Of a stretch of 64,000 nt of DNA, positions 8,974 to 57,100 are shown piece by piece. The position numbers were made by a program, and so were the translations under genes. A model generated the notes under the pieces. That model did no database searches. It was not told the DNA's origin and saw only the letters and a list, made by a program, of their open reading frames with translations. The DNA is taken from contig CM049312.1 in assembly GCA_026874595.1 (NCBI GenBank), positions 54,191,429 to 54,255,428 on the forward strand, written 5' to 3'. The number at the start of each line of letters is the position of its first letter. Within the stretch, counting starts at the first letter, position 1. This DNA is from Sipunculus nudus. Its lineage: Eukaryota > Annelida > Sipuncula > Golfingiida > Sipunculidae.

Positions 8974-9126
8974 TTAGAAGACAGATTCCGCACTACGAGA
9001 GATCTGTACAGGATGTGAAGGGCTCCTGGCTAATCGTTTCTTGGGGAGTTTTTCAAGTGTTTTCAGTAAACGACTAAAATCTGGCCGGTTACTAGGTTTG
9101 AAGGCCCAGCAAGACATCAAGAGATC
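8974..9126 (-). CDS. KSR: KSR terminal coding exon 19
   Basis: 153 nt including the TAA at 8974-8976. It encodes [32 protein letters not shown], then [18 protein letters not shown]...RP.F..L...LEKLPK and the short SHP...SAE tail are the standard KSR C-terminus. Acceptor TTTCAG. Confidence 0.98.
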   Translation of the reverse strand, partial: DLLMSCWAFKPSNRPDFSRLLKTLEKLPKKRLARSPSHPVQISRSAESVF

Positions 9127-12100
9127 CTGAAATGAAAAATCAAGTTTATTGTAAACAAAGCTGAACAAATCATAAATGAGAAGATACCTGTTCCAATGTA
9201 TATGATGTAAGCTATGATACCACTACTGGACACAGACACTGTACTCAAGTCTGACAATTCTCTCATGAAATAAGAGTGACCTAGTAAGCACTTATCATAT
9301 AAGACCTTAAGTAAAAGTAATATCAAGTTAAATTGGCAAGAACTGATCACTGGGATATTCACTTATGGGTTTTTATATCAAAAATATGTTTCAGGTTCAC
9401 AAAATATCGAAATAAGTTGAGAGACCCAAGCAAGTAACTACTGGTGCCAAAGATTCATAAATGCGGATTACAATAATGGTTATGAATGTTCCCAGTTAAC
9501 AGACCTACAGGCCACAGGCAAACCACCCTGCAAGTAAACATCCTTTTGATTACCTTCTTATGACAGTTTGACTGAAAAGGCAATATTTCTGATATTTAAC
9601 CATATTTCATATAACCAGAAATGACTTAGACCCTGACCTTGACATCTTTAGAAGAATGGATGTTACTAAGGCTCTGCTTAATGCCTCGTCCAACCTGCCA
9701 AATGATCACTTCCGGCTGCGTCGCACGAAAAGGCCATTCACCAGTCAGAAGCTCATACCAAACCGTTCTGAAACAGAAACATCAACAGTAAAACATCATC
9801 CAAATTATACCCTGTACAACCTCCTAATTATGGACAACAGCCGTAAGGTTTCATCCATAACAGGTGTCCACACCACAGGTTTCAGACCGCCAAATCTTCA
9901 TCCACGGGACTGCCTGCAGTGTCTGTAATTGAGAGGGGTCCAGAATAGAAGAGTGCCTGCAAGGAGGGGATCGTCTGTATCTACTGCAAATATTCAGCTA
10001 GACACTGTATACACATACATCATATATCATTTAAAATATTCAATTTCTAACAGAAAAATTATAGGCATAAATTTTGCCAATTGACAAATGAAGAATTTAT
10101 TATAAATGATTATTAATTATGAAAAAATAAGGTTTTATGATAAATAACAAGGCTTAGTTACAGACACATTAGCAATGCAAAAAAATCAGCACACAAGATG
10201 TAGGATAACAAGGTCGTTATTAAATACAAGCCCATTCTGAGAGTGCAAAGCTCACACTGGTTCTGCAGGCATTTGTATTGATATTTAACAAAGGATGAAG
10301 CTTACCCAAAGGCATAAACATCTGTAGCTTCTGAGAACGGTAAGTCCATGTCTCGCATGTAGTTGCCCCACGGCTGTAATCTCCTCGTGATCTCAGGAGC
10401 CAGGTAACACAACCAACCTTTAGGAATTGACAAGCCTTCACGCTGCCTGTAGTAAAAAGGAAGTGGTGTTGTTAGCTCTTCATTAAGGAATACACCACTT
10501 GGGGGGGGGGGGGGGAGCGATTATGGAAAATATATTAAGTCTGTGTGCAAAGTACTGAAAAATGTACCTATAAATCTCTGATTTAAGTAATTTAAATTAT
10601 TTTCTTGCTGACTGATGTTATTACCTCCACTAAAAGAAGTTTGGGGATGGGGGTACATAAATTTTTAAGGGTGGACCTGGATACATATTAAATAATATAC
10701 TCCCACTTACTCTAGCTGGTTGTTGGTTTTACTGTTTAACATATACAACACGCCCAGCCTGTGTGCAGTGTACATACCTTAGTCCATGGCACATTTTGGT
10801 GACATTACATAGTCCAAAATCTGTGATGACAACACCACCTCGTTCTAAGAAGACATTTTTCGTCTTCAGATCCTTGTGGATTATCCCTTTGGCATGTAGG
10901 TAGCCCATACCCTGAAATGGTCAACAAGTCTGAACTAACATTCTTGGCACATATAAAGTACAGGTAGATTAAAGACGTCAGGGCTGGCTGGTAGGGGTAA
11001 AGTTAATACAGATTAACAGTAATGGATCACACAAAATATTGATATTTTCTTGACTTAAAGAGTTTGTCAAGTTTATTTGAATAAAACCACCAAGCAGCAA
11101 TGTAGATGCAGTTGAGAAAGAGAAATAAAACTGCATTTTCTTGTGGAGGCCAATAAAAGCCCTATTCTAACACTGTCACTTAAACCATTTATATTATGTT
11201 TTTTTGTGATACTTTTCTACAAATCTGATTCTTTTCTTCAGTTTGTGATAAAAGTTGACAGAAGTTTTTCTTTATTATTTATATAATTACTTGTCAGAGC
11301 AATCAGTAAATGAACTGACAGACCAAAGAATAACTGGAATGACAAGATTTTGTCAGAGTCACCAGATCCTCTTACACCAGTCTATGTATCATCATATATT
11401 GTGAACTACTGTTATAACATACCTGTGCAATTTGGGATCCTACTATCACCATTTTGTTGAACTGGAATTTTTCGCCTCTAAGGTGAATATGTTTGTACAA
11501 AGTTTCTCCTTTACATAAACTGTTAAAAGAAAAGTGACACATGAATGAGATTATAAAGCAATAATGAGATAATTGAGGACTTCACATTAAAATGCCATGC
11601 TTGGCTATGATGAACAAACAGTCATAGTAATTGTGAATGTTAAAATAAACTAGACATGTCTGTCATCGTTGATGCTATGGTTTCCCCAAATCCTAGGCAT
11701 CCTAATTAAAAGGACTAAAAAGGTAAAAGGCCCCACAAAACACAACAACCATCAAACAATCCATGGAGCTAAGCCACACTAATCTGGAAATATAATTTTC
11801 AATAAAATAAAAAGATGTGAGGCATTGCCACAAGTATTTTTCAACAATAAAAATATTAAAATCTGACTTGCTTTATTTCAAAACCATCCATTACATAAAA
11901 GAGCATAAATTGTCATGAATCCTCAGCACCCCTGATCTTCTGGCCTGGGGATACATTAATTTAAAATTATTATAATAATAATGATGAAATTAATAAACTA
12001 CAAACAAATGTTTACAGGAATTATGCCATTCCTGAAATTCATAGCAACAGGTGTAAATTTATCAACAAGAGATGTAGTTTTGTTTACTTTCTGAAGAAAC

Positions 12101-15100
12101 AACAAGATAAAGAACAGGAGAAATTCATAAAAGCCAGCTATTCACGTCCTTGTCTGTAAATCCATATGATTTCTGCCTTACTCTGTATATATTTTAATGA
12201 ACTATAGATAATGCCTGCTAAGATAGGTCTGTATTGCCTTCTGAAACTACCTGTTGATTGTAAATACAGTACATGCTCCCATGTTGACAAGTTTACTGGA
12301 AAAACCACATAACTTAAGATGGCTGGTTGCATATGTGCAGAAGCTCAAAGGTCACTGGTTACAAAATGCCATTTGCAAACCTCCCGTTTGTCGGAGTTGC
12401 CCCCAGATGTCCTTGTTGAATGTGCTTGGTTTATTTTTTTGGCAGCCCCCCCCCCCCAATGTTAAAAACATATAGATATGAACAAACACAAAGAATAAAA
12501 ATGAACAGCTTGTGTATTGCAGGGGACAGTGTTTCCTGGCCTATATTTATGAAATGTTCAAGGGATTTTCTTTAGTTTATAGGTGTCAGATATCCAGATA
12601 AATGTCATCTATTTGCAGGAGACCATATACCTATGGGACTGTTGGGAGTGTGATGATAGTTTACCTTGTGACAATAGCTAGATGAGGAGGCTTCATACAA
12701 GCCCCCATAAATAGCACCAGGTTTTCATGTCGCGTTTTCTTTAGTGTGGCCACCTGAAATAAAAAGAGATTCATTTAAGATCCCCTGCACTAGCAAAGAA
12801 GTAATACAAGTTACCTGATAATATACAGCATAACTGTACCAGATATATACTGATTGTGGCCTATGACTGGTATCTTCCATGAGGTTATATCAATTCCTCA
12901 AGATGCAAAGATTCCAAATCTTGTAACTCAACAAGAAGCATTTGAAATGTAAATTTTTTATAAAAAAAAGGAAAGGCTGATAATAAAGCTGATAATTGTC
13001 CTAGTATTACAACAGAACTGTAGAACCCCTATGTCAAGATCTCAGTAACATCTATAAACAACAGGACAAGTTTTGCTTCAGAGACAAAGTGTGCAAGACA
13101 CTGAGAATGGGCGTTTGGTTGCATGTACGTGCTTATACACAAACATACCTCTTGTTTGAAGGCAAAGAGCTGTGCCTGGTTATCTTTTTCTGCATCACAT
13201 TGATCCTGATTTGAATCCATCTTTAACATTTTTATTGCCACATCACCATGCCAGTTTCCTCTGCAAACAAATATATCATAATCATTACTACAATCCCTTA
13301 CCTAACTGATCATTAAAATTAATCTTCAACTAGAATGAGTTTTTTTGCAATGCAAAAACAGATATGTCTCCCCTCCTTATGGGCCTCCCATCCCAAAATC
13401 TGAAGACAAAAATACAGACTACTTTAAAAGCATTCAGCAAACAGTGTTCACAAATAATTTCTATTCCGGCTGATTTGACCTTTAATATGGAGGCCAAGGT
13501 CACCAGTTTCTGGGTACTTCCAAGATTGTTCCAGAAACATTCCACATATTTAGTTTCATGAAAATATAGTGGTTCAGAAGTTATTGTGTTAACAAAATAT
13601 TTATATTTCTAATTTAAACTTGAAGATGAAGGTCAAGGTCACCTTTTTTTATAATTTGTCTGAGATATTTGCAGAAATATTTCACGAGTCCAATTTCATG
13701 ATAATAAATTGAGTGGTCCAAAAGTTATCCCATTCACAAGAAATGACTTAGATTTTGCTGATGAAGATGACAGACCAAACACTATATGTCTCCCCCAATC
13801 CAAACTTTATGGATGGTAATGGAACACTCTAGTCAAAACTACTGTCATTCCTGCTTGATTGTATATCGTATAAATGAACATCCTGTTTAATTGTATAAAT
13901 AATGAAAACAAAAATCTTTATTTCTGTTCTTTTAATTAAATTGTTTTCATGAATATCTGATAAATGTATATATTGATTAACTGTGTAGTATAATAAATAA
14001 CAAAAGCAAAGAAGTAAACATACAGTATTTTTTAGTGTTGAGTGCAAAAATTATACCGGGTAAATATATCTTTGTAAACTAATGAAGTTAAACATCACTA
14101 AACGAAAAATTCCTAAACAGATAATTTAGAACACTCTGAATAACATGTAAAACACATGCAATCCATCTGATAACAATTCTCAGAATCACAATGATGGCTA
14201 CAACCTTGAAGATTAACACCCTGTTTATTTGAGTAGCATGCTTAAATGAATACTGTCTGTTGACAAATATAGTATTTAATCAAACGGGAAAGACAATATG
14301 AAAGACCTTGGAAAGAAGCATCTATACACCTAATTATAAGTATTCAGACCAGATTAAGATACAGATTCGAAATAGCCGGATGTATAGGTAAGCTTTCAAC
14401 AATAAATTAGCTATTTTTGAGATGGCATGGTAGATAATAACAATCCTTCTAGTCCACCTACAAGTACTGAGACATCACAATAACACTTACTTATATACAG
14501 TGCCAAAGCGGCCGCCCCCTATGAGGTCCCCCACACAAAGCTCTTCATAAGGAATGTCCCACTCCTTCAGAGTTTGTGATATCTGAAACATAACATGATT
14601 TTAATTAAATAACAGTATGTGATGCCTGAAATGCAAAAAGCTTGCTCAAATAACAGTGTGATATATAAAATACAAAATTACTCTGTTCAAATAACAGTGT
14701 TATATCTAAAGTAAAAAACACTCTGCTAAAATAACAGTGTAATATCTAAAATACAAAATAATTCTGCTCAAATAAAACAGTGGTGATTTAAATACAAATT
14801 ATTCTGCTAAAATAACCGTGTGATTTCTTAAATACAAAATGCTACTGTGCATTTCAGACTTTTTTCAGAAAACCATTTTTGTCCACTTGGTGCAGTAGAT
14901 GGGGACATACATGTTCACATAGCTGTTTTGAACAGCTTATTGAACTTACACTATTTTGTATACAGGTATATCAGTTTATTAATGCTCACTGTACTCACAC
15001 TATTTCTCCTGTGTGAGCAGCTGTGTTATGGCTTACTGTATTTACATTATTTCTCCTGTGTGACCAGCTGTGTTATGGCTTACTGTATTTACACTATTTC

Positions 15101-18100: not shown

Positions 18101-21100
18101 GAGTCATTTTCATGTAAATATACTGAGTGGTTCTAAAGTCACAGTGTTCACAAATAATTTCCAATATGGGCAATTTAACCTTGAAGATCTAGGTCAAGGT
18201 CACCAGTTTTCCATCTGGTCTGAGATATAGGTAGAATTAATTTAAATTTGAAATTGCATGAAAAAATGTTCAGTCATTCAAAAGGTACCTTGTTCACATG
18301 AAATGACACAAGCACCGCCTTTGACAACAGACAAAAACTGTCTCCCCCATAAACATATTAACTATTTTACATAATTTTACTTTTTCAAGGAAGACTGAGT
18401 TCCAAAAATAACATGAATATAAACCCATGTATATACACAAACAAACATGCACTCACACACATACAGCTATCAATTTTGTTGAATATTTGTGATTTACATT
18501 TTCTGTGGCTTTAACATTCTTACCAGGTCATATATAATGTAACTCTGATACATTCACTCATGTCGATCAAATATACAGATTTGCTTGTTCTTTTGTGGAT
18601 TATCCTGATATTAAGTACCAAAATGTCCTGATGTGGGGAAAACTAATTCAGTTGACTGTTTTCCTACCTGGTTGTAACCAGAATGAGTTATAAGTCACTC
18701 CGGTGAATTCTGGTCTACAATATATAATTTTACAGTAAAACACTCGGTATTACCATGTGCAAATTATGCAGTTTTTGTGTTTGAATATATTTTTGAATAT
18801 TTGAATTTGAATGGTTCAACACAATTTTTTAGTGTGGCATAGAAGACAATCTGCCACAAAAAAGGGAATTACTAATTTTGTGCCCTACATATGCAGGATA
18901 GTCATTTTAATAATCGTTTGGTAAGCTACAACAAGATAAATAGATGCTAAACAATACTTACTACACACATGAGGAGGGCTTAATTACGACTCGTGGAGAG
19001 CCTAGATTTTCCACAGAGCTTATTGTGCCAACTGTGCTAATGGAACTTGCTGTTCCAATGGTTCCAACTGAACTCGTCAACGACGTGACATCTGAAATAA
19101 CAAGCAAACTCATTAGAACAAAGCACAAACACGCAACTAATTACTTAGCGAAATTGGTCAATGTCATGTTGCAGATATCATTCTAGGAACTGTCGTTCAG
19201 CTGGGAATGAGCGTTTAAAATTTTCTAAACCGGGGCAATCATTAAAGGTAAATGTCCCTGTCCTGAAATGGTATTAACAGAGTTTCTGCACCAGAAGGAG
19301 TATGTCAACTAGGGAAACATGGGTCTCAACACTCACCTGAATGCCTTTTAAAAGGATATTTTTATGAGCTTTTACAACAAGTAAATCTTGACCTTGTGAC
19401 CTAAAAATCACAAGGGATCTTTCCCTACTGGTAGGTGAGACAAATGTGAAAGATAGAGTGGATATCTGGAGACAGCTATCCATTTGTATGCACGTAACAT
19501 TATTTCTAGAGTGTTCAAGCAGGCCCATTATCTTGCAGAATAAAGGTCACAATAGCCTCAATTCAATTCCCATGGAGTTTTTTTTAGAATCTCTGATAAT
19601 GCATGGTTTCATGAGCCTAGCACTTTCACTTACAATTTGTGCAACAACTGGTTGGACAACGGACAAAGTGCCATCATTATACCCCAGTTGACTTTCAGTC
19701 AGCTAAACTAAAAACTTGAAATGTTACTACAAGAACCATTTATTGTGTTTATTTGGAGTTTTCTACTTTAGGAGTAAAAAGCAATTTACTTCAGATTCTA
19801 GCTATACCTTAAGCTGTAGAGGAGTTGCACATCTGATCAATAAAAATATATCTGTGCAGGTTAATTGAGAGGGTCTGGCTGAAATGAAAGCTCAGCAAAT
19901 ATAATTACAGAGGTTACACATCATATTGATAACAAAACAATGTACATGTTCATGATAATGTGGCAAATTGGTTAATATTAATAATGGTACATCAAGTAAT
20001 CTTCAAACATCTAGGTAAACCAAGACTTTGTGAAAACTGGTTTCTCTGATCCCTCAGGGCTTGCCAATGATGTAATACAGTATTTCCTACATGATAATTT
20101 GACCTTACCATTTCTGTGAAATGTGGTTAAGGTAGACGAGAGCATAGGTCTCTGCTGCACCACTCTAACAACACTTATTTTGAGTAGTGCCACTAGGGGT
20201 CTCCTCCTGTGGCCCTTTCTAGGGGTGCCATAGCAACTCAAGTTGGTGACAGAGCAAGGCCTTACCACATCAAAAGGAGAAAGGGATCAGTGATTATGAA
20301 GCAGAAGCCTCCACTACCAAAAGTACATTTCATGATAAAATTGTTATTTTCATTTCATGGATGTGTTTACTCTTGCTGAACACGGATTAAACTGTATTTG
20401 CTCTGGCAGCCCTACAAGGTGCCATGGGAAGAGACCCCTGGTGGAACTGTTCAAAATTACTTGTTTGTGAAAGTCAGTGGATCAAAGTTATAGCACAGTT
20501 GAGCAGAGACCTTAATAAAACCCATGGCCATGTAGTGAAACTTATTTGAATCTTCTGTCACAATAAAAATTCTTCATGCAAATCCTCATACACAGACACA
20601 CGCATACAGACAGCTGAGACTGACCTGGGAACTGGAACTGCGTGTCTGGCGTGATCTGTATTTGGGGAGAAGGCTGACTGGGTGAGATTGGATGAAGGCC
20701 GTGTGGGATTATCAGCGCCGGTGATGAAGGTGTCGAGGAATTACATGACGATGTGTTAGAACTGGAATCAGGAGCTTGGAATGCAGGAACAGAATTGGCA
20801 GGTCGGATACCAGTGCCGTCTCCGTAGTCTGGTAAAGACATGCTGCCGTCGGTAGGGTGACGCATCACGCTCGGGGACCCTGCAAAGCAGGCACATCAAA
20901 TGTCACATTTATCCAATCAATACAACAGTCTGAAATTACTGTTAATTAAAAGCTTTATTATGTTTGTAATGTTTAACTGTATTAAAAAATATATAGATTT
21001 AGTAAAGCAGGCACATCAAATGTCACATTTATCCAATCAATAAAACAGTCTGAAATTACTGTTTTAATTAAAAGCTTTATTATGTTTGTAATGTTCAACT

Positions 21101-24100
21101 GTCCTAAAATATATATAAAATATTAATGTTAATATACAGAGCCATATCATTTAAGAGTAGGACAATAATTCCTTAGTTCATATCTGCCACATTGCTTATG
21201 CTTTTGTTTCTTTGTCTTCACACATTACACACATGATTATTCACCCTCTTATATAAAACTTTATCATCTTGCATTAAGTCTATACAGAAAACAGAATGTC
21301 TTAATTACTCTACTGCTTACCCTCACGCATGGTCTCTATATAGAAATCTATATATTCTGTGGGCAGACCGCATGCAGGGGCTGCTTTTGTTGCACAGTCC
21401 TTATGGAACTTATACCTGAAAGATGCAGAATAAAGAAACAATTATGATAAATCAGTGATAACAATAAATTTACTTCATTATGTTAAGGGAGCTAATATGT
21501 GCATTATGATCTAAGACACAATGACCAAATAATAAACAGCTTAAACCACAGATGAGAATTTTCAAATTGTTAGTGCCATCTTTCAAGAAAATACACCAAC
21601 TTATTAAATGCTGATGTTCTTTAAATTTTTCTTGATGACATTTATATGCTTTAGCAAGATTAAGTCAAGCTAACAGATGTTAGGCCAGATGGATGAGTTA
21701 TGAACAGAGAGATATTGCTATCGCTTAGCACAACTGATTATAGTCCATCCCACCATGAGGCGCCAATCTTTTTTTGGTGTTGAAAGTCTATTTTTGTCAG
21801 GACATATTGACTGGTGACAAGGTCAAGGACACTTTTTGACTTTGACTGGATGGCTGGAATATCGGGTACCATAAATATGATCAAATAAATCATCAGCAAA
21901 AATACGACATCCTGCATTGTCACTTCACATGGATATATCTGGAAAGTTGTCAAGTATTTATTTAATAAGTTTGACTAAAACTTTCTTTCTATACTGCTCT
22001 AGTGCACATAATTTTCTGTCACTGTAACATACTGGGTGCCCCATGCAGGGACAGACTATAGTCAGCTAATCCAAACAAAGAATGCATGATAAGTGCTGCT
22101 GAAGCTAGTGTTTGTAAAAAAAAATCTACACACATGAAACAAACTTGTCCGAAACTGGATCAGAATTATACTTATAATTAAGCAATGGAAATATGTTTAT
22201 ACTTACATACATTTCATAAATTACAAATTTACTTTTCATATCATTAGTTGCAAAAAAACTGTCCATACCTTCACAGTTTAACTAATATAATGATCAAAGA
22301 ATGATTTGTTTATTTAGAAAATAATCATTTTATCATTTAAGATATTTTAATGATCTGACACATTTTAAGCAAATTACTGGTTTGTAAAAATCACAACAAA
22401 GCATGCAAACATGTAAATAGCACAGTTAAAGAAGAGAAATGGTAATATAACCATGGCTCACTTGCAGTCTTTGCATACTTTGCCTATGATGACATATTTT
22501 CGGCAATGGTCACATGACCCAAATACTGGCTTGGCTTGGAACCTAATCAATAACCACAAAAAATTCAACAACATAAAACAGACAACAACAAAAGCAATGA
22601 ATCAAATACAAACAAAGAACCTAGAAGTACATACAGTCAACACGGAATCTGAAATAAATATTTGATAAAGTAAATTCCTTCCACAAACATTTCCATACAC
22701 TTAAGTGATTACATGAAATATTTAGCACTGGGTAAAACCTGGAATTCTGCAGAAATTTTAGGAAAACTTTGCTCTATCTGGAGCACTGAAAATATTTTTC
22801 TAAGGAAATGAAACTGATGTCAATTTTCCAATTTTGATGCATGGAAATTATCTACTGCGAATGAAAATCAAGATATAATCACTTTAAATATAAACCATAT
22901 AAGGAATCAGGCTAACACATAAAATGTTCCATCTTTATTGAAGGGGTGATGTGAAATTGTCTGCAAGGGCAGAACACTAAATTTATAATCTCAAAACTAG
23001 TCTATTTCAAGATCTCCAGTTACTTGACATTAATTAATTTCATTGAAAACTTTCTGTATATAAGCAGAATTTTTTACTACTCAGCCCCTGAAAGAGGATA
23101 ATAATCTTTTGTACTGACATAACAATTGCCAAAAATGATCAGTCAGAAATTTCTGAGGAAATTCACGTTTACAGTGTGCTGAAATATTCCCTTTTTACTA
23201 TCACATAAAGAGGTAACCTTTTTTCCAGTGCTCTGTCTCTCTCAGGTATAAACTGAAAGCTGATGCATTGTCCATATACTATGGGTGGCTTTATATTTTC
23301 GGGGTTACATTTTTGTGATTTCACAATTTTCATTGTTTCGTGTGGGTTTCATTTTACAATTTTTACTACATTTTCAAAAATTTACTAAACAATAACCTAC
23401 ACAAAGTATACACTATATTGTGCAAAATATTTACTTGGTGCACTAAATCTTAACAGTCCCACAAGGATCCCAGTGTATGCTAACTTGGTGCAATTAATTG
23501 TGATATTTAATGGCTGTAATTTTAATAAAAAATTTAAACTCCATGTTGATCATGATGGAGTGCTGCTTACAGACACTAGATGTACCAGATATGCTTCATC
23601 AGTATTTGGTAATATGTTTGTTAAATTTGAAAAGGTCCCAAGGACAAGGGGCTCTGGTTGCATCAGTACAAGACAATCCTTGCAGCCATTGTCAAGGAAA
23701 CCAAAATCAATTAATAAATTTTCAGGCAATATACTCTGCCATACATGTGGTGACACCTACCATGATTACCAGTACACTGGTGCACTATACTTGCAACAAT
23801 ATATAACATCCATGCTTGTTCTACATGTCACAGAATACATCGAATAATACCAAGCTACAACATTTATAACAGAACTGACAATACCACGTTTATAACACTG
23901 TGATACCAGTAATGAAAGAGAAAACATGGACACCAAACTACTGGCACAACATGACCAGCTTACTTGCACTCTTTACACTTGTAGCCTATTATCATTTGCT
24001 TTTGACAGTAGTCACAGGTTGTTAACTTAAGCGTGTTGGTGAACCTTCAGGAAAGATGAGATAATTCCAATTAGACTCGGTGAATGTCAAGTTTCTTTTA

Positions 24101-27100
24101 ACATCACAAAAGCATATGACTTTATATAACCTGCTATGCCCAAATCATACAATAGGTTGAGGAACTGGTACAAAAATAATGTCTGATGATTGTAAGAATG
24201 ATGATCGATTATGAATCTGTTTTTACATGTATACCCTTTCTCTATTATTTTCCAACACCATTCTGACAGCTCTAGGATGCTTCCCTTATCTGTAATTTTA
24301 AGGCATGCAACTTTCAAAGCTCATTAGCAAAGTCCAGTTATCCTGTAAGGATATGATAAATCATGCTATTCAATGCATACTGTGGAATGCATACTGTGTT
24401 CTTATTTCTCAATATGTCACTCAAGTTCTCATCACAACAACTGCCCACTGGTGGCCAATCTTGAAACTAACACAGAGTACATAATGTACATGTCATGGTT
24501 GAAATTCAAATCCAGGGGAATTTGAAATTCCCCCAGGGGAAGTTAAAATTGGAAGTTCTCCCGGGGCAACTTACAATTTGAAGTTTTCCTGGGTGAATTT
24601 CAAATTCTACCAGGGGAAATGCCAATTGTAAGTTGCCCCAAGAGAATTTTTAATTCCCCCCAGGTGGGAAAGTCAATTATTTGAAAGCAAATTCCTTATT
24701 TTCATTAATATGTACAATATTTATTAACAAATAATTGTTATCTTTGAAACAGGAAGAGGGATATTGCACTTCAAAATTCCTTATTATTGTATTATTGCAT
24801 ATAATAGTGCTACTAATAATATGAGTTTTTAATATTATTGGGATATAGGTTTTTAATATTATTAGTATGACAGAATTTTGTTTGTCTGCCAGTATTACTG
24901 CTAGTTCTAATATGATCTTAATTAATAGTCACGGGTGACTGAACCTCCTGTGTTTGTTGTGAAAAAGTGTGAAGAACTGGATTACTGAGAGATTAGATCT
25001 ACAGTTGTCTGTGCATAACATATTGCTTCAGTTTGCAACAGATTCAACTGCAGGCATAATCAAATCCTCATTCGCCTGTGAAGACCTTGTTGACATGAGG
25101 AATGTGCATTTCCCGTCTCTTGAGAAAGCTGATCCATTAAACCTTGAGGAAATCACCCTGGTCCACGCAGCAAGAGCAAATACTGGATGGAAAGCTTCTG
25201 TTTCAATCATTTGTTCATGCAAAGGTAGCTGCATTTCTAATAAGTGCAGATGTAAGAAAAACGGCATCGCTTGTGGTACCAAGTGTCACCCAAGAAGTAA
25301 TACCTGCCAGAATCGTATTTAAACAGTTGGACTTGGACTGAACTAATTTTTGTGTAAAGAGTGTGATAAATGGTCTTTTCCCATGTACATAAGCCCAGTG
25401 TCTGACGGAATGCTGTACATAAACAATGATTTTTTTCAACAACTGCAGCTGCATGATAGCATTTCATCCCAAAGTGATACCTACCTGAAACATTAAATAG
25501 CTAGACTGTAATTTTAGATATGCGATTCGTTTTGCTTTTTGCCTTGGACATAAGCCTTACCGGAATGTGTGTGCTATACTATGTCATGATACAAATGTTT
25601 AATTGTGCATGAATACTCTTTTTACAATTAATAATTCAAGCTGTTAATTATGTACTTGTAAGAGCACATGTAAAATTTCACTTGACTGTACATGAATAAA
25701 ACATTTGAAAAATTGTGAGTATTGTCTTAATTTAATATCTCCCATGTAACTGATTATATTGGAGTATAATGAATACTTTACCAGCAATGTATACTGGTGC
25801 AAGGTGCGTTTTATGCATTTGTCTAGGGATGATACAATTTATGTTCCTTGACTGTACCTGATAAACTTTTTTATCGGAGTGTTGTCTTATCTCTTTACTG
25901 AATATATGAGAGAAGAAACTATTGTACAATTTTAACTAGATAACCTCTAATTGAATAAATTTGTTAAACTATTACACCTGGGGAATTTAAAATTCTCCTG
26001 GGGCAACTTACAACTGGCGTTTCCCCTTGTAAAATTTGAAATTCCCCTAGGGGAACTTCAAATTGTAAGCTGCTCCAGGAGAACTTCTAATTTTAACTTC
26101 CCCTGGGGGAATTTTAAATTCCCCTGGATTTGAATTTCAACCATGACATATACATTATTTGGTCACAATAAAGGTCATGGTCACAGACAGGGTTGTTGAC
26201 TCTTTTCTTATGTGTCCCTACCTCCTTATGTTTCTGATTGAATTAAAAGATTTTTTCTAATGATATGACTTCTTTGCATGTACATACAGAATTGTCGGTG
26301 GTTAATCACATGAAAATTTAACCATTAGAATGTTTAACATATGTATGATTTACTGAATCCCATGTAAATCAATACTTGTAAATTTATATGAATTTTCTTC
26401 AGAACAAAAGTATATTTCTATTGAAGGCTCTGCTGAGATTTGTTAGGCAGTTTATTACTCCCATTACATCATTAAAAAGTGTATGGTGTTGAGTAAAACC
26501 TCACCTAAGGACCATCTCTCTTTGGCAACCAACTTAAAATAATGACCACTTGTTCATGGTCCAGAATCTTTTTGGCTCTTTATATAAGACCTCGCTTAGA
26601 CGACTACATCAAAAATGCGACCACTTAATGAAGGTCCCATTAGTGGTTGTAATTTGGAAGTTTAAGTTTAGTTTCATTCAAATCGTACTGAGTTCTCCAA
26701 TTGGACAGCTGTTGACCACTTGACATACCTGTGGCTAATGGCGTGCATCATACTACGAGAACCCAGGGTAGGTCGCGGTGACATCGGTGGGACACTCAAC
26801 TGGTTGTCTGTCACGTTGAACCTCTCTGAAAAAGAATTTAAATATTAATCAACATATCCACATTGTTTAAATCCCATACTAAATATATCATCAGTCAACT
26901 TGAAGTTACATTATTACTAAACTTGAAATTTTAGTTATTTTAAAGAGGAATATCACAGTACAGATTTAAATTCCATATTTTATAATATATGACAGTGTGA
27001 CAGTGCAAAATATTATCATTTTATCATAGTATGTGAATTTTCATGAAATATTCAATAAACAGTAAAATAAATCAAATTTCAATATTTTTTCAAGACTTTT

Positions 27101-36100: not shown

Positions 36101-39100
36101 ATTTTGTATTTGTATAAGTATTTGACTGGTCTTTAATTTGTAAAACTTTATAAAATAGGCAGTTCACTTGGCAGGGACAGTGACTAAAGTTTTATTTCAG
36201 GTGTGTATGAAATCATATATATAAGTTATACTGTTTAAACTTTTATTTGTCATTATTTTACCTTCGATGACATTTGAATGGCTTGAAATAACATGGCACA
36301 TGCATGATTAATGTGGAAAACTCAAGAGGATGATGATAATATTTTAATTTTTATATATTATTTTATATTTTATATAGGTTTATAAAGTGCCTTTTTAAAA
36401 ATGAATTTTATAACCCAACTGTACAATACAGGATTCACGAACACCAGTATCCAGGTTTGTTCCAATTTTTTTTTTTTTTACCTCCTACCTATCACTTTTG
36501 TCAAACATGTTCGTAAACCAAAGAATTAAAAAAGTCTGGCCTTAGGAATGCTGTATATTATTATTTATTCATCAAGTTTCCAAGGGAGGTGAGGAAAGCT
36601 CCAAGAATTATAAACATCCCTTGCCAGGAAGTCGGAGAAGAGTAAAGTTTGATTGGACATCCTTTGACAGGCCCGCAGCATCAACATTTTTTTCTTTGCA
36701 AGGGTTTAAAATTTGTGATACTCGAGAAAGGTAACTTATCTGAAAAAAAACCTTCCTGAATAATAGGACTACACAAAAGGCAAAATTGAAAAATAAAATG
36801 TTAACATTATGAATAAAATAGATTGTATATGTTCAAAGATTAATAATTTGAACTATATCACATCTTTCCGATTGTCTGCCATTAACAATCAATGATTTTT
36901 GCTCATGAATAAGATTTTGTGCACATAATATTTTATATAATTAATTCACATAATAAGGGATATACTCTGTGTATAGGTCTTTGATATTGTCAGATCTCAA
37001 AAATGGACTCATTACAAAACAATTAAAATGTAAAAATCACGATATATATGTCAACAAATGTATTATAAAAGCCCTTACTTGGAGAGATCATCCACATCTA
37101 TAATCCGATTGGCAAGCTGGGATTCATGTGACCTGCTCTTGGTGAGTGGATACAAAGGTTCGGGCCGCAGAATGTTTCTCTTGTGAGGAGGTGGGGTTGT
37201 TGGGAACTTGCCCTTGACTTTGTTGACTAGAGATGGGGTAGGGGGTGGTGTGTACTGTTTCCTCTGTTCTCCAGGGGACGGGTGAGGCACCGGCGAGCTG
37301 GGAGTGCTGTGAACCCCCGGGGACTGCTCCGCGTACAGTAATGCCTCAGGAGGAAGTGATGACACAGAGGGTCGCAGCGGGAGTTTGGGAGAGTTGCCGC
37401 CATAAGGACTGTTACTCGCTGATTTGTATGACGACCAGTGCAGCTCCATCAGCTCAAGGTCTGTTTTCTGTAACATGTCTGAAGACAGCTGCAGCGCTGT
37501 AAATACAATACACACGTTACCATGTATGCTTTCTGTACCATGTCTGAAGACAGCTGCAGCCTTGTTAATACAACCATACACAACGTTATCATGTTTGCTT
37601 TCTGTATCATTTCTGAAGACAGCTGCAGCGCTGTAAATACAACAATACACAAGATATCATGTCTGCTTTCTGTACCATGTCTGAAGACAGCTGCAGCACT
37701 GTAAATACAACAATACACACGTTACCATGCATGCTTTCTGTACCATGTCTGAAGACAGCTGCAGCCCTGTTAATACAACAATACACAACGTTATCATGTT
37801 TGCTTTCTGTACCATGTCTGAAAACAGCTGCAGCGCTGTAAATAGAACAATACACAAGATATCATGTTTGCTTTCTGTACCATGTCTGAAAACAGCTGCA
37901 GCGCTGTCAATACAACAATACACAAGATATCATGTCTGCTTTCTGTACCATGTCTGAAGACAGCTGCAGCACTGTAAATACAACAATACACAACGTTATC
38001 ATGTCTGCTTTCTGTACCATGTCTGAAGACAGCTGCAGCGCTGTAAATACAACAATACACACGTTACCATGTCTGCTTTTTGTACCATGTCTGAAGACAG
38101 CTGCAGTGCTGTAAATAAAACAATACACACTTTACCATGTCTGCTTTCTGTACCATGTCTGAAGACAGCTGCAGCACTGTAAATACAACAATACACAAGA
38201 TATCATGTCTGCTTTCTGTACCATGTCTGAAGACAGCTGCAGCACTATAAATAAAACAATACACATGTTACCATGTCTGCTTTCTGTACCATGTCTGAAG
38301 ACCGCTGCAGCGCTGTAAATACAACAATACACACATTACCATGTCTGCTTTCTGTACCATGTCTGAAGACAGCTGCAGAATGAGAATACCCAGAGTTTTG
38401 GGAGAACACAACGCCATCAGTTTGTCAAACACTGTCATACTGAACATATATAAACTACCCATATATTTTTTTGATATTATAATGATAACTTCTATATGTA
38501 GAATTTCACTTGATTCTGTAAAATAACGAATATCCTTGAAAATTAACGATTTTAAAAAAACTAAGACGCAAAAAGGGCATGTTTGTGTTCCAAAATTGTG
38601 GAAAAAAATACATATCATGCAGTCTCGATAACAGGCAAGTTAGTGATATGGTTATTGCAGCTCTGTCAGATTTTGTGATAATCCAAGATATTGGTTATCA
38701 TTCCATCCCTAAAATTGGCTGTACCAAGTGTAGTTTATTCTATGGTTAGATTGTCAAAATTATACACACAATGTTACTTTTTTCACAAAAAGTGAAAATC
38801 CACAAAAATTGTATCTCCATGAATACAATATATGGTTACACTTTCACAGAAATTAACAAAGTAAATTAAGGAACAATTAAGAGACACAATAAAATCACAA
38901 CATTTCTGATTTTTTTTTATCATTAACTGATACCAACATTACACAGCACTGACACGAAAAGTACAACGTCTTCACCTGTCCATGCTTTGAGATTCTTCAA
39001 GGCGGTGCAGAGCCGTGTGGTTTCATCTTCGCGGGCACCGTAACGATTCATTAGACCTCCTATTTCCTGCTCAGTCATTTCCAGCAAGGCGTCTAAAGTC

Positions 39101-42100
39101 AGACCGCGCATGATGATGCCCTTCAAAGATAAAACTTCATGGTCATTTACAAATACAGTGGAACCTGACTGAAAGACCACCTATCTAATAAGACTACCTC
39201 TGTCTAATAAGACCCCCCCCCCCCTGGAGTGAAATAAAAGCATTCACATTTTGTTTATAACTGACATGTCTAATAAGCCCACATGTGAAATAAGACACTT
39301 TTTACCAGCCAAAAGGGTGGTCTTATTTAACAGGTGGTTTAATTGTTAAATTCAGCTGAGTAGTATGCAAGCATTTTGACCAGTGAGACTGACCTTACAT
39401 AAACAAACAGAAATACTCACTACAAATCTATCTCATAATCTGTGGTAAAGGAAACAGAACTGATGATCACAAAAGCAAAACAGGCAGTTTAAGGCACCAC
39501 ACCTTCTAAAATGCCACAGATTTTATAAGTTAATGAATTTCATTCATCATTTTTGAATCAATAATAATTATCGGAAGTGATCTGTGTTCTTTTTTCTATG
39601 TTTTCTCTTTATTTTTTGCAGGACTCAAATTGTGATTCAACTGTTCACATTTATGAAAATGTAAAGATATAGAAGTGTCACATGTCTTAAGTTAATACTT
39701 TAGAAAAATATCTCTGATTATTAGGAATGGCAGGCATGGCCAAATTTCAAATTTATGTAGCCCATTTTAAGGTTACCCAATTTTGTTCGCCCAATTTTGC
39801 CATGCCTGAACAGCAAAGTTCAGGTAACTTCATTTTGCAAATTTATGAGAAACTGGACAAACTGCAGAATCTTACTTCAAATGGAATGCTTATACCGAAT
39901 GCCAAATAAATTTGTGATTTTTAAGGCCAGATTTCAAATTTCCCTGGACAATAATCTGAAACAGTTGGCAGTCTGCCAAAGCTATAAATAGATTCAGATT
40001 GACCTTTGGCTTGTTGCAAAATCTGTAACAGTTGGCAGTCTGCCAAGCTATTTATAGATAAAGACTCAATCTTGGCCTGTATGTAAATCTGTTAACACAT
40101 ACTGAAAGACTTTGGCTATAATGCTTTTATCAAGCTGACATATTAATCAAAATGTTTAAATAATAAAAGATGTAGTACTTTCATTGATAAAGGTCCAATA
40201 ATTCTGCCAACAATCATTTTAGTAAACTGGAACAAAGGCCTCCTAGGAATCATTTTTGTGCAATGTTACAAAAGTTGCAACAACAGTTTTGCAGCAGAAG
40301 ACTATTGCAGTCCTTAGTCTGAAATAGGTTTACTAATGGCCCCAAGACCAAATTCAGCTTTTTATGACTCTACCAAAAATATACAAACCCAATCTATTCT
40401 TGTACAATTGAAAGAACCCTACCCTAGGATAGTACTTGTGAAAAATTAAACAATTCAGCTTGACAGTTTCATCATAAAACATTTTTAAACTGCAATTTTA
40501 AACTGAAAGAGGCTAAAATCATGAGGCTTTTGTAAAAAAAAACCAGGTCAATGTAGGTGGCACCACATAAAACTGCAATTTAAATATGAGTCATGTGACC
40601 AAAATTTGTACAAAACTTGGTGATGCTAGCTCCTGTTGTTTCTAAGATTATTATGTCAATGTGCTTACTTGGCCGAAAGACTACCGGTAAGTTCAAATTC
40701 CTGTAACTCAACCAAGTTCATCAAACCCAAACCATTTGAACAAACTTATCTCTGGGATTATTTCTGTGAAATACTGAACAATTTGGTTGAATGATTTCAG
40801 AGAAAAAGATTTTCAAAGGTTTTTTAGATCCCCCCCCCCCCCCTGCAGGTGGCACCACAAAATGCTCAATCCCACAATATTTGATATGTGACAGATTTTA
40901 ACATAAAACTTGGGGATGCTAGCTCCCACTATTCCTGAGAAATTAAGGATTAATGTACTAATGAACGATGACCCTCGTACAGAAAAGGTTGATACAGGTG
41001 GTGCCACAAATACCTCAAGTTCATATATGAACCATCTTACCAACATTGCATAACATTTGGTGAAGATGGCCATTTCTGATATTGTAATTTTAGTATCCTT
41101 TTTTCATCTTTATGATTAAGTTTAGCTTCCTGCAAGTCGGCCAAGACTCACCAAACTTGAACCATTTGAATAAACTTGAAAAAGATTGTTCCTGGGATTA
41201 TCTCTGTAAAACATTGAACAATTTGGCTGGACAGTTTTGTAAAACAAGATATTTAAAGGTTTGTTTAGCTTTTTCCCTATAAAATCTACGTAAATGCAGA
41301 TAGCAACAAAATTGTCAAAATCCCATAGTTTTTTAGATGTCTGATTTTTTGCATAAAATTTGGTGGTTATAGCACCTGCGGTTTTTGAGATAGTATGGGT
41401 TAACCTACAGACATTGGCTGAGGACACACCATTGCATGAGCTAACAGGTTCTCTAAAAAAATAATTAAAATAAGATTATTTAGAGGTTAATAATCAAATA
41501 CAATTCAATCGAGGGCATGCAATTTGATGCATTTATTCTTTGATGCATTGTTACATAACTATATTTCATACAGGGAACTTCTTTAAATTTAAAAGTTCAT
41601 TTCAACTTCCAAACATTCAGAGAATTCTTAAAGAATGTAGGAACTTCTGGCATGCATTCCCAACAATATTAAACTGTTTGCATTTTCGACATGCCTGCTA
41701 TCAGGAATAAATCTCCTGTATATTTTAACAGTTTGCAATTTATGCTTCTATGAGATTTTAAAAATATGCCTGTGAAAGAAAAACGTGCTGGACTCTCATA
41801 AAAAATTTGCATGATCTCAGAGATATTGGCAAATACACGATGAACACTTTTTTTACTTCTTTATGATATGCACAATGCTGGTACTGGTACACAAGCTGAA
41901 CACACTTTAATGTCTGCTATGAGCTGAAAATCAACAAGATCCCTCATCATATCTTATTTGATGCAGTTTTCCCAAAAAATTGATCATGTAATCTACTTTA
42001 CCAAGAAATGAATATATATGTGGGCGAAAGTAGGTGACAATGAAACTGAAAGCCTAAATTATACAAGTGACACATGGGCCATGACACTCAGCAGACTAAC

Positions 42101-51100: not shown

Positions 51101-54100
51101 TTTTACTTGACAAATCATGATATGTCAACAACAATGGTAACAACAATCCAATGCTTAAATAAACAAATACCACTGATTTTGAAATTAAACTGCATAACCC
51201 CCCCCCCCCAAAAAAAAAAAAAAAATTATCATTTTTTATATGATGCAGCACCTCATTATGTTAACTGCATGATGGTTATTCACATTATTAACCAAACACT
51301 CTTTGTCTGTGCTTCAACAGTTTCAATATATAAAATATTAAACAAAGAATTGCACCTATTAGTACCCTTTCCATGCTTTAGATTTTTTTGCCTCCTGTGC
51401 AGATTCTGTGCCAATTAGGTAAAAAAAATTATGGTTCTCAGGCACTGCCCGCATCAATTTTAACCCCTGGCATCTAAAAAATTTTAATTTAATCTTTCAA
51501 GAAGATAAAATAAAACAATTTTGATAAGATTTTCTTTGTTAAGTTGTGCTTTTACCTGTTTAGCAAAAAATGTATGTTATTATCATGCTTTTCCCCGATC
51601 ATATGACATTTTTGTCAAAACATACAAAAAAGGTGAAAAAATAAATATCACTTGCCCGAATTCCTGAAAAAAAGTGCCTGAGAACCATACCTGTTTTTTG
51701 CCTTAGTTTAACCTTCTGAGTTAAGATGCAAAGCACATCCAACATATAAGTAACATGGCCTCATTCGATACTACCAATTCTGTAGAGAAATTAATGTTTG
51801 AATAATTTTACAACAAAGAGCAATAAAGTTAATTTTATAATGATAGTAATTTATTCCTGGTGTGAGAATATTTATTTCACTTTGCCTGATCAATATTCAC
51901 TAATCAAAATGTAATAAAACTCATCATGCCAATCAAAAATAGGAATTACTCAAAAGTATAATGAAACAGGAACTTGACAACCTGCTCATATTCTGACTAG
52001 CCTTTGTTGTTACCATTATAGTACCAGGGACCTTAATGGTCCAGCTGGCTTGCAGCCAACACTGTACCAAAATATTTACAGAATCTTATCACAGTGGGTC
52101 AAGCTACCAGTCTGGTATGCACACCTCCAGGCACATAAAGCAAGGCCTGCTACCACACTAAACAAATATTTAACACTACAATAAGGTCTACACCTTCCCA
52201 GGGTCCCCTCATCACCGTGATAACAAAAGTTGTCAACAAGGATAACTTTATCACACTTACTTCAAAGTCATCATTCTAGAATAATTAGTCCAGCTTTGCA
52301 AATTGTTCAATTTCTAGGGTTGTTCAGATTACTTAGACTGATTGTTACTAATTTTGCAAAAAAGTAAATGTTGCACATTTGTGTGACTATTAAAGTCCAT
52401 CTACAACAGGGAATAATAAATAAAAAATGCATAACTTTAAAATATGAACAATTGTCTAAATGTTAGTCTATGGATAGAAGGGGGAGTCTGTGGCCGTCTT
52501 AGTTGTCATGGATTTAAATACTCAAAGGAATTATAATATATAATTTTTCTGACAGGAGGAGTTTTTAGAACTGACACAAATGATTCACTGTTAATGAATG
52601 CTCATTTATCAATGAAAACAAATACAGAATTTGATTCCCAATTTCCCTACACCAATATGAATATTCAGATTCCCAGGGGAGTTGTAAATATTCACTTTCC
52701 CAGGACACAGGAGAATGTTCACTCCCCCAGGATGGAGATAAATATCCCCTTTCCCAAAACAAATGTCAACAATCACTTTCCCTGGACAGATATGAGATCT
52801 CACTTTATCAGCAAGTATGTAAATGACAGATGTGAACCATCACTTTCACAGGACACATACATGTACATGTTCACATTCCAAGGAGAGGTCACTGTTTACA
52901 TACCCAGGAGAGAGTCACTGTTTACATTCCCAAGAGAGAGTCACTGTTCAAATAACCAGGTGAGAGGTCACTGTTTACATTCCCAGGAGAGAGGTCACTG
53001 TTAACATTCCCAGGAGAGAGGTCACTGTTAACATTCCCAGGAGAGAGGTCACTGTTTACATTCCCAGAAGAGAGGTCACTACTTACATTCCGAGGAGAGG
53101 TCACTGTTTACATTCCCAGGAGAGAGGTCACTGTTAACATTCCCAGGAGAGAGGTCACTGTTAACATTCCCAGGAGAGAGGTTACTGTTTACATTCCCGG
53201 GAGAGAGGTCACTGTTCAGATTCCCAGGAGAGAGGTCACTGATTACATTCCCAGGAGAGAGGTCACTGTTAATATTCCCAGGAGAGAGGTCACTGTTAAC
53301 ATTTCCAGGAGAGAGGTCACTGTTCAAATTCCCAGGAGAGAGGTCACTGTTACATTCCCAGGAGAGAGGTCACTGTTAATATTCCCAGGAGAGAGGTCAC
53401 TGTTAATATTCCCAGGAGAGAGGTCACTGTTAATATTCCCAGGAGAGAGGTCACTGTTAATATTCCCAGGAGAGAGGTCACTGTTAACATTCCCAGGAGA
53501 GAGGTCACTGTTCAAATTCCCAGGAGAGAGGTCACTGTTAACATTCCCAGGAGAGAGGTCACTGTTAATATTCCCAGGAGAGAGGTCACTGTTAATATTC
53601 CCAGGAGAGAGGTCACTGTTAACATTCCCAGGAGAGAGGTCACTGTTTACATTCCCAGGAGAGAGGTCACTGTTAACATTTCCAGGAGAGAGGTCACTGT
53701 TCAAATTCCCAGGAGAGAGGTCACTGTTAACATTCCCAGGAGAGAGGTCACTGTTAATATTCCCAGGAGAGAGGTCACTGTTAACATTCCCAGGAGAGAG
53801 GTCACTGTTTACATTCCCAGGAGAGAGGTCACTGTTAACATTTCCAGGAGAGAGGTCACTGTTCAAATTCCCAGGAGAGAGGTCACTGTTAACATTCCCA
53901 GGAGAGAGGTCACTGTTTACATTCCCAGGAGAGAGGTCACTGTTAACATTTCCAGGAGAGAGGTCACTGTTAACATTCCCAGGAGAGAGGTCACTGTTAA
54001 TATTCCCAGGAGAGAGGTCACTGTTCAAATTCCCAGGAGAGAGGTCACTGTTAACATTCCCAGGAGAGAGGTCACTGTTTACATTTCCAGGAGAGAGGTC

Positions 54101-57100
54101 ACTGTTCAAATTCCCAGGAGAGAGGTCACTGTTAACATTCCCAGGAGAGAGGTCACTGTTTACATTCCCAGGAGAGAGGTCACTGTTAACATTCCCAGGA
54201 GAGAGGTCACTGTTAACATTCCCAGGAGAGAGGTCACTGTTAATATTCCCAGGAGAGAGGTCACTGTTAACATTTCCAGGAGAGAGGTCACTGTTCAAAT
54301 TCCCAGGAGAGAGGTCACTGTTACATTCCCAGGAGAGAGGTCACTGTTAATATTCCCAGGAGAGAGGTCACTGTTAATATTCCCAGGAGAGAGGTCACTG
54401 TTAACATTCCCAGGAGAGAGGTCACTGTTTACATTCCCAGGAGAGAGGTCACTGTTAACATTTCCAGGAGAGAGGTCACTGTTTACATTCCCAGGAGAGA
54501 GGTCACTGTTAACATTTCCAGGAGAGAGGTCACTGTTCAAATTCCCAGGAGAGAGGTCACTGTTAACATTCCCAGGAGAGAGGTCACTGTTTACATTCCC
54601 AGGAGAGAGGTCACTGTTAACATTTCCAGGAGAGAGGTCACTGTTCAAATTCCCAGGAGAGAGGTCACTGTTAACATTCCCAGGAGAGAGGTCACTGTTC
54701 AAATTCCCAGGAGAGAGGTCACTGTTAACATTTCCAGGAGAGAGGTCACTGTTCAAATTCCCAGGAGAGAGGTCACTGTTAACATTCCCAGGAGAGAGGT
54801 CACTACTTACATTCCCAGGAGAGAGGTCACTGTTAACATTTCCAGGAGAGAGGTCACTGTTCAAATTCCCAGGAGAGAGGTCACTGTTAACATTCCCAGG
54901 AGAGAGGTCACTGTTTACATTCCCAGGAGAGAGGTCACTGTTAACATTTCCAGGAGAGAGGTCACTGTTCAAATTCCCAGGAGAGAGGTCACTGTTCACA
55001 TTCCCAGGAGAGAGGTCACTGTTTACATTCCCAGGAGAGAGGTCACTGTTAACATTTCCAGGAGAGAGGTCACTGTTCAAATTCCCAGGAGAGAGGTCAC
55101 TGTTTACATTCCCAGGAGAGAGGTCACTGTTAACATCCCCAGGAGAGAGGTTACTGTTTACATTCCCGGGAGAGAGGTCACTGATTACATTCCCAGGAGA
55201 GAGGTCACTGTTTACATTCCCAGGAGAGAGGTCACTGTTAACATTTCCAGGAGAGAGGTCACTGTTAACATTCCCAGGAGAGAGGTCACTGTTTACATTC
55301 CCAGGAGAGAGGTCACTGATTACATTCCCAGGAGAGAGGTCACTGATTACATTCCCAGGAGAGAGGTCACTGTTAACATCCCCAGGAGAGAGGTCACTGT
55401 TAACATTCCCAGGAGAGAGGTCACTGTTTACATTCCCAGGAGAGAGGTCACTGTTAACATTTCCAGGAGAGAGGTCACTGTTCAAATTCCCAGGAGAGAG
55501 GTCACTGTTAACATTCCCAGGAGAGGGGTCACTGTTTACATTCCCAGGAGAGAGGTCACTGTTAACATTTCCAGGAGAGAGGTCACTGTTCAAATTCCCA
55601 GGAGAGAGGTCACTGTTAACATTCCCAGGAGAGAGGTCACTACTTACATACCCAGGAGAGAGGTCACTGTTAACATTTCCAGGAGAGAGGTCACTGTTCA
55701 AATTCCCAGGAGAGAGGTCACTGTTAACATTCCCAGGAGAGAGGTCACTACTTACATTCCCAGGAGAGAGGTCACTGTTAACATTTCCAGGAGAGAGGTC
55801 ACTGTTCAAATTCCCAGGAGAGAGGTCACTGTTAACATTCCCAGGAGAGAGGTCACTGTTTACATTCCCAGGAGAGAGGTCACTGTTAACATTTCCAGGA
55901 GAGAGGTCACTGTTCAAATTCCCAGGAGAGAGGTCACTGTTAACATTCCCAGGAGAGAGGTCACTACTTACATACCCAGGAGAGAGGTCACTGTTAACAT
56001 TTCCAGGAGAGAGGTCACTGTTCAAATTCCCAGGAGAGAGGTCACTGTTAACATTCCCAGGAGAGAGGTCACAACTTACATTCCCAGGAGAGAGGTCACT
56101 GTTAACATTTCCAGGAGAGAGGTCACTGTTCAAATTCCCAGGAGAGAGGTCACTGTTAACATTCCCAGGAGAGAGGTCACTGTTTACATTCCCAGGAGAG
56201 AGGTCACTGTTAACATTTCCAGGAGAGAGGTCACTGTTCAAATTCCCAGGAGAGAGGTCACTGTTAACATTCCCAGGAGAGAGGTCACTGTTTACATTCC
56301 CAGGAGAGAGGTCACTGTTAACATTTCCAGGAGAGAGGTCACTGTTCAAATTCCCAGGAGAGAGGTCACTGTTTACATTCCCAGGAGAGAGGTCACTGTT
56401 AACATCCCCAGGAGAGAGGTTACTGTTTACATTCCCGGGAGAGAGGTCACTGTTAACATTCCCAGGAGAGAGGTCACTGTTAATATTCCCAGGAGAGAGG
56501 TCACTGTTTACATTCCCAGGAGAGAGGTCACTGTTAACATTCCCAGGAGAGAGGTCACTGTTTACATTCCCAGGAGAGAGGTCACTGTTAACATTCCGAG
56601 GAGAGAGGTCACTGTTAACATTCCCAGGAGAGAGGTCACTGTTTACATTCCCAGGAGAGAGGTCACTGTTAACATTCCCAGGAGAGAGGTCACTGTTAAC
56701 ATTCCCAGGAGAGAGGTCACTGTTTACATTCCCAGGAGAGAGGTCACTGTTAACATTCCCAGGAGAGAGGTCACTGTTTACATTCCCTGGAGAGAGGTCA
56801 CTGTTAACATTCCCAGGAGAGAGGTCACTGTTAACATTCCCAGGAGAGAGGTCACTGTTAACATTCCCAGGAGAGAGGTCACTGTTTACATTCCCTGGAG
56901 AGAGGTCACTGTTAACATTCCCAGGAGAGAGGTCACTGTTAACATTCCCAGGAGAGAGGTCACTGTTAACATTCCCAGGAGAGAGGTCACTGTTTACATT
57001 CCCAGGAGAGAGGTCACTGTTAACATTCCCAGGAGAGAGGTCACTGTTAACATTCCCAGGAGAGAGGTCACTGTTAACATTCCCAGGAGAGAGGTCACTG

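Follow-up and report, generated by a model that had tools for sequence, protein, structure and literature searches.

The window analysed here, a stretch of 64,000 nucleotides of the Sipunculus nudus genome (G000:C7:54191429-54255428), carries on its minus strand a gene whose domain content indicates that it is a KSR, the family that governs where and when RAF, MEK and ERK meet. The SAM_KSR1 profile scores 31.1 bits at positions 38986-39129 of the minus strand, against a cut-off of 22.5, and this match, which we assign to the same KSR gene, is the sole one above the cut-off among the two listed genome-wide in searches that covered 1.43 Gb. Also assigned to this gene are the kinase-like exons at 8977-13259 on the minus strand (peptides 13259-13149, 10911-10783, 10442-10305, 9766-9638 and 9126-8977), two of which, out of five, were taken into a PDB search. 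For the first, six KSR, KSR1 and KSR2 chains lead with E values from 1.9e-14 to 4.8e-14 and the first RAF chain follows at 1e-8 (best 60 of 420 matches); for the second, KSR chains make up the top five of 7, the best (E=3.1e-18) being the KSR chain of 8bw9, which we take to be the Drosophila protein. A KSR-type SAM, a C1 and a kinase-like domain, by which the KSR family is recognised, are all found in the gene, and the C1 part alone is slightly nearer to RAF-1 than to KSR1 in the PDB search. A reading made earlier from the letters of the window (the sequence-only reading) had already named the gene as a KSR, and both the SAM_KSR1 match and the closeness of the two kinase exons to KSR chains in the PDB bear it out. 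The available text of PMC10322840 reports KSR3 in non-chordates, including molluscs, and describes sea urchin KSR3 as being without a CC-SAM domain. Because a SAM match is present in the window gene, whereas sea urchin KSR3 is without CC-SAM, we take the gene to be of the KSR1/2 type on the strength of its domains, and a divergent KSR3 may lie elsewhere in the genome. Searched genome-wide, the exon 7 peptide found one further weak match, at a locus (L006) that is presumably RacGAP-like, and the kinase peptide gave 57 listed matches, the best beyond its own scoring 32.9 bits. The split KSR exons were not among the 14 matches listed in a genome profile search with Pfam C1_1.

The C1 domain of this gene is assembled from several exons, and its core is present in two versions. 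In transcript order on the minus strand these are the constant exon 5 (26729-26825, placed by its sequence and AG/GT borders, and numbered as in the sequence-only reading), version B (23964-24044, 81 nt, nearer to the canonical KSR1/RAF finger), version A (22462-22542, 81 nt, the more derived copy) and the constant exon 7 (21321-21415), which holds the HxxC and the last C1 Cys. Exon 5 closes with the codon of the first zinc-ligand His followed by the AG of the next codon; A and B both enter with a codon third base (G) and exit with two bases (AA). The borders of A consist of the acceptor TTGATTAG and the donor GTGAGC and those of B of the acceptor CCTGAAG and the donor GTAAGC, both versions are open frames with the same four Cys, and 1421 nt separate them. 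They agree in 11/26 whole codons, or 12/27 residues when the split Lys codon is counted, and in 47/81 nt. The sequence-only reading had described two C1 exons of equal length with the same phases, splice sites and four Cys, had put their agreement at about 12 of 27 residues and had drawn the first His from exon 5 and the final HxxC from exon 7. On the minus strand this description proved correct, with the addition that the last Cys also comes from exon 7; both exons turned out to be real, and in the transcript B precedes A.

When exons 5 and 7 are placed around it in silico, either version is predicted to complete the finger, as had been claimed. The 5-B-7 form reaches 43.5 bits and the 5-A-7 form 35.6 bits with Pfam C1_1 (cut-off 26.5), and the full C1 ligand set is present in both. 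The RAF-1 C1 (1faq) is the best PDB match of A and of B, and the KSR1 C1 chain 1kbe comes second for B (E=3.8e-9) and third for A (E=3.1e-6). The ligand pattern is that of the KSR1 CA3/C1 (1kbe/1kbf), with a first loop of H-x10-C in both versions that is one residue shorter than the x11 of KSR1 and two shorter than the x12 of RAF1. The differences between A and B had been said to concentrate in this loop before the first CxxC; indeed, 0/8 of its residues are identical as against 11/18 elsewhere (exact p = 0.004, for a loop picked after the sequences had been seen), and loop 2 differs too. At the 15 positions where the versions differ, the residue of the outgroup (KSR1, RAF1 and the genome's own RAF) is found at 5 in B and at 1 in A, and B agrees with KSR1 in 13 of 26 columns, A in 10; by these counts A is the more derived copy, if by a modest margin. 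W341 and V345 of KSR1 are kept in neither version, and A is also without the Gln after the CxxC and the K/R before the third Cys (the K358 equivalent), both kept in KSR1 and RAF. The loss of these residues from A could reflect a weakened function or a new one. The genome's RAF-like C1 (L001, G000:C1:382899-383027) is 67% identical to RAF1, and all of it from loop 1 through the last Cys reads as a single open frame; since the frame is uninterrupted there, the second C1 intron of KSR, which makes the 81-nt cassette, is absent from it.

A and B share only 11/26 residues and 47/81 nt, and their intron flanks are unalike (24/60 and 19/60 nt identical), which argues that the duplication is old. By codon position the differences number 10, 8 and 16 of 26. 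The NG86 method returns dN 0.50 and dS 2.97, the dS carrying a wide error with 26 codons, and a maximum-likelihood estimator returns the extreme values 2.5 and 17.2; as the estimators disagree and reach such extremes, we limit our statement on age to 'old'. The divergence at third positions (16/26) corresponds to a Jukes-Cantor distance of about 1.3 between the copies, or 0.65 per branch. We simulated drift from B in 40,000 runs with substitutions only and no indels, and the copy retained its four Cys, an open frame and AG/GT in 0.9% of cases at 0.3 substitutions per site, in 7.25e-4 at 0.5, in 2.25e-4 at 0.65 and in none at 1.0 or 1.5. Because a drifted copy is so rarely intact at 0.65 substitutions per site, selection has probably maintained A for much or most of its life, and because 0.9% of the runs remained intact at 0.3, a recent loss of its function may have occurred.

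We believe that A and B are tandem-duplicated KSR C1 exons, probably mutually exclusive, of which B is ancestral-like and A derived, a reading that we hold with reasonable though far from complete confidence. According to this model, a single internal exon of KSR would have been duplicated in tandem long ago, giving two intact, in-phase versions of the C1 core, each with the two CxxC pairs and the two loops that face the membrane. A transcript would take B or A, not both, and the two resulting KSR isoforms would have the SAM, the kinase part and the constant face of the C1 domain in common but differ in their membrane-contact loops. We infer from the features above that both exons are spliced, with B as the ancestral-like and A as a modified membrane module. 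An alternative is that A is a fading relic, once used in alternation but no longer spliced, with only B making KSR protein, to which its lower score as a C1 domain and its match to the outgroup at 1/15 differing positions (5/15 for B) would be suited. We consider this unlikely, given that A has neither stop nor indel and has kept four Cys and both splice sites despite third-position changes in 16/26 codons, an outcome that drifting copies seldom reach at 0.5 or 0.65 substitutions per site.

How a choice between the two exons might be enforced also bears on whether they exclude each other at all. The reading frame is kept when B and A are both included, without a stop and as had been noted before, and when both are skipped, so that exclusion through the frame is rejected, both lengths being divisible by three. 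Steric exclusion through branch-point distance was discarded given the 1421 nt between the exons, as was U12/U2 incompatibility, all borders being ordinary GT-AG. The pairing of introns was tested with the inserted element at 24481-26158 left out. In six intron pairs, whole-intron duplex energies, an insensitive measure, were no lower than those of 20 shuffles each beyond their spread, and between 6 and 53 of 60 shuffles equalled the best gapless intron-intron stems. These observations leave room for a reading in which B is included constitutively and A optionally, or both are optional cassettes, yielding the forms 5-B-7 and 5-B-A-7, the latter with a longer, remodelled cysteine-rich region. 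The double form is in frame and still exceeds the Pfam C1_1 cut-off, but its 47.6 bits are the sum of two stretches, the best of which spans model positions 13-51 of 53 only, and its ligands run H-C2-C2-C2-C2-H-C-C. Moreover, A retains exactly the C1 ligand pattern and the phases needed to replace B, and we regard the cassette arrangement as quite unlikely. We infer instead that A and B exclude each other, because double inclusion would yield that extended ligand series and not a single C1 domain.

If the exons are mutually exclusive, a trans-acting splicing regulator is to be expected, since frame, branch-point distance and U12 incompatibility are unable to enforce the choice. Such a regulator would pick the exon, possibly aided by RNA pairing of the B-A intron with the exon 7 acceptor. 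This candidate regulatory stem involves the minus-strand segment 23232-23251 of the B-A intron, which pairs at 17/20 positions with the exon 7 3' splice site (21410-21429), and the duplex of -29.4 kcal/mol is the best of 45 minus-strand tiles. It was matched in 0/300 shuffles and, on refinement, in 21/15,000 (p = 0.0014, about 0.03 after the 24 splice-site complementarity tests); the next lowest test, which paired the B acceptor with the A-7 intron, gave 6/300. The tests were run after a repeat search had already brought up this acceptor pair, and as the pair was noticed before testing, we regard the stem as a marginal candidate for a regulatory element. By hiding the exon 7 acceptor for as long as the B-A intron remains, it could favour early use of A. 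The sequence-only reading had proposed a search for complementary intron segments, which thus gave no excess in the six intron pairs and, at the exon 7 acceptor, this single marginal stem. Two short motifs were also considered and set aside. A CU octamer, TTTCTCTT, which closely follows both donors, has 3 copies on the minus strand of the window, and 239/5000 random 50-nt pairs share as much; TGCATG near A occurs 29 times on the same strand and was given no weight.

The relationship between A and B was assessed by an exon-pair scan from exon 5 to exon 7, with criteria adapted from Pillmann et al. 2011 (PMC3228551, as far as its available text describes them) and restricted to AG...GT or GC borders. 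A and B came out as mutual partners with a relative BLOSUM62 score of 0.41-0.42 (published cut-off 0.15), and the remaining candidates were truncated forms of B only. With either query the opposite strand gave zero candidates, and the scan found no third copy between exon 5 and exon 7. When the 22 non-Cys residues of B were shuffled, 2/200,000 shuffles attained the A-B score. When the peptides of 13 exons presumed to belong to the gene were searched against the window, only A and B matched each other below E=0.1; at a looser setting a kinase peptide additionally hit the satellite at 53-57 kb (best E 0.015), a match that we take to be spurious. In whole-genome searches A and B each matched only itself at E<=10, and since neither found the other, these searches exclude close copies only. 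An assembly or haplotype artefact, to which the use of one assembly would lend itself, or a chance resemblance within an intron strikes us as highly improbable, because the copies differ at 34/81 nt between unalike flanks, which argues against a duplicated haplotype, and because the shuffles, the scan score and the empty opposite strand argue against chance.

The swapped segment holds the positions to which published work on RAF1 and KSR1 assigns membrane or lipid contact. For KSR1, the available text of PMC10932182 proposes a C1 ceramide pocket formed by L342, V345, M353, I354 and F355 and states that membrane localization of isolated C1 probes needs C359/C362; it adds that some studies, notably of the truncated domain, saw no direct ceramide binding, so that lipid binding by this domain is disputed. 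With H334 matched to the first ligand in a numbering of our own, all seven residues, the five of the pocket and C359/C362, fall inside the swapped exon, and the pocket positions are occupied by L, T, M, I, I in version B and by F, S, V, I, I in version A, the placement of the gap in loop 1 being uncertain. The RAF1 cysteine-rich domain is comparable, in that the columns of R143, K144, K148, K157 and L160, given as its phosphatidylserine and membrane-insertion residues in the accessible part of PMC7895934, are all within the swapped part; a Lys stands at the K144 column in A and, in the phmmer alignment, at the K148 column in B. Of the RAF1 residues that the paper names as RAS contacts, the stretch from E174 to T182 corresponds to exon 7 and the pair T138 and H139 to exon 5, and F141, R143 and F163 fall in the swapped part. 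The earlier suggestion that the variable loop contacts membrane or ligand is in line with the placing of this loop in both papers. As the membrane residues lie in the swapped part and the main RAS-contact stretch in the constant exon 7, exchange of the exons would be expected to change mainly the membrane face, presuming that KSR C1 acts like RAF C1. Sea urchin KSR3 activates ERK less strongly when two cysteines of its C1 domain are mutated (PMC10322840, available text). One could go further and propose that KSR in this animal group has a spliced lipid-recognition switch, in which exon choice swaps the entire membrane-contact C1 face and leaves the constant face as it is, the scaffold is sent to different membranes or lipids according to cell type, and the stem sets the timing by masking the exon 7 acceptor up to the removal of the B-A intron; this would be a speculative extension, and the odds are heavily against it.

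Tandem-duplicated mutually exclusive exons are a class discussed in PMC9013439 and PMC9741552, within the text available. The KSR pair shares with that class similar length, phase, splice sites, homology and adjacency in one gene (PMC3228551, in its accessible sections), with the difference that it is known here from genomic sequence alone. Among the matches listed from the open-licence literature, in the text available, no duplicated or alternative C1 exon is described in KSR, which agrees with the statement in the sequence-only reading that no C1 exon swap was known there. The available main text of PMC9741552 and PMC5740500 names neither KSR1 nor KSR2, worm ksr-1 and ksr-2 are entered without exon detail in a table of PMC3771449, and in a table of PMC1431701 one row sets a mouse Ksr transcript beside the C1 domain, as far as the accessible parts of these papers go. 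The arrangement is thus of a known kind, and its KSR C1 case is without a report among those same matches, though gene models with two such isoforms may have been published for other species. A scan of viral contigs with the B-form peptide gave 14 pattern matches, none of them confirmed, and is uninformative on animals. KSR is a scaffold of the Ras-ERK growth pathway, and the two intact C1-core exons suggest that it is made in two spliced versions. If so, Ras-ERK control would gain a level of regulation by splicing that may be missing from vertebrates and model insects, and nature would have supplied, in a swap confined to the loops that face the membrane, an experiment on what the C1 domain senses.

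Several other elements were seen in the window. The intron between exon 5 and B contains a 1.68-kb element (24481-26158) with 179-nt inverted ends that are 91% complementary and each rich in internal palindromes, and it looks like a DNA transposon remnant. Near 25180-25310 the plus strand encodes, by eye, a Cys-rich stretch that presumably resembles a CXC motif. An intronic tandem duplication of about 120 nt (20884-21117, blocks 98% and 93% identical) lies just before the exon presumed to follow exon 7 and adjoins its 3' splice site. Finally, a long tandem satellite on the minus strand (52925-57282), with repeats of about nine residues (NSDLSPGNV), stays open for 995 codons in one frame and for 338 in another.
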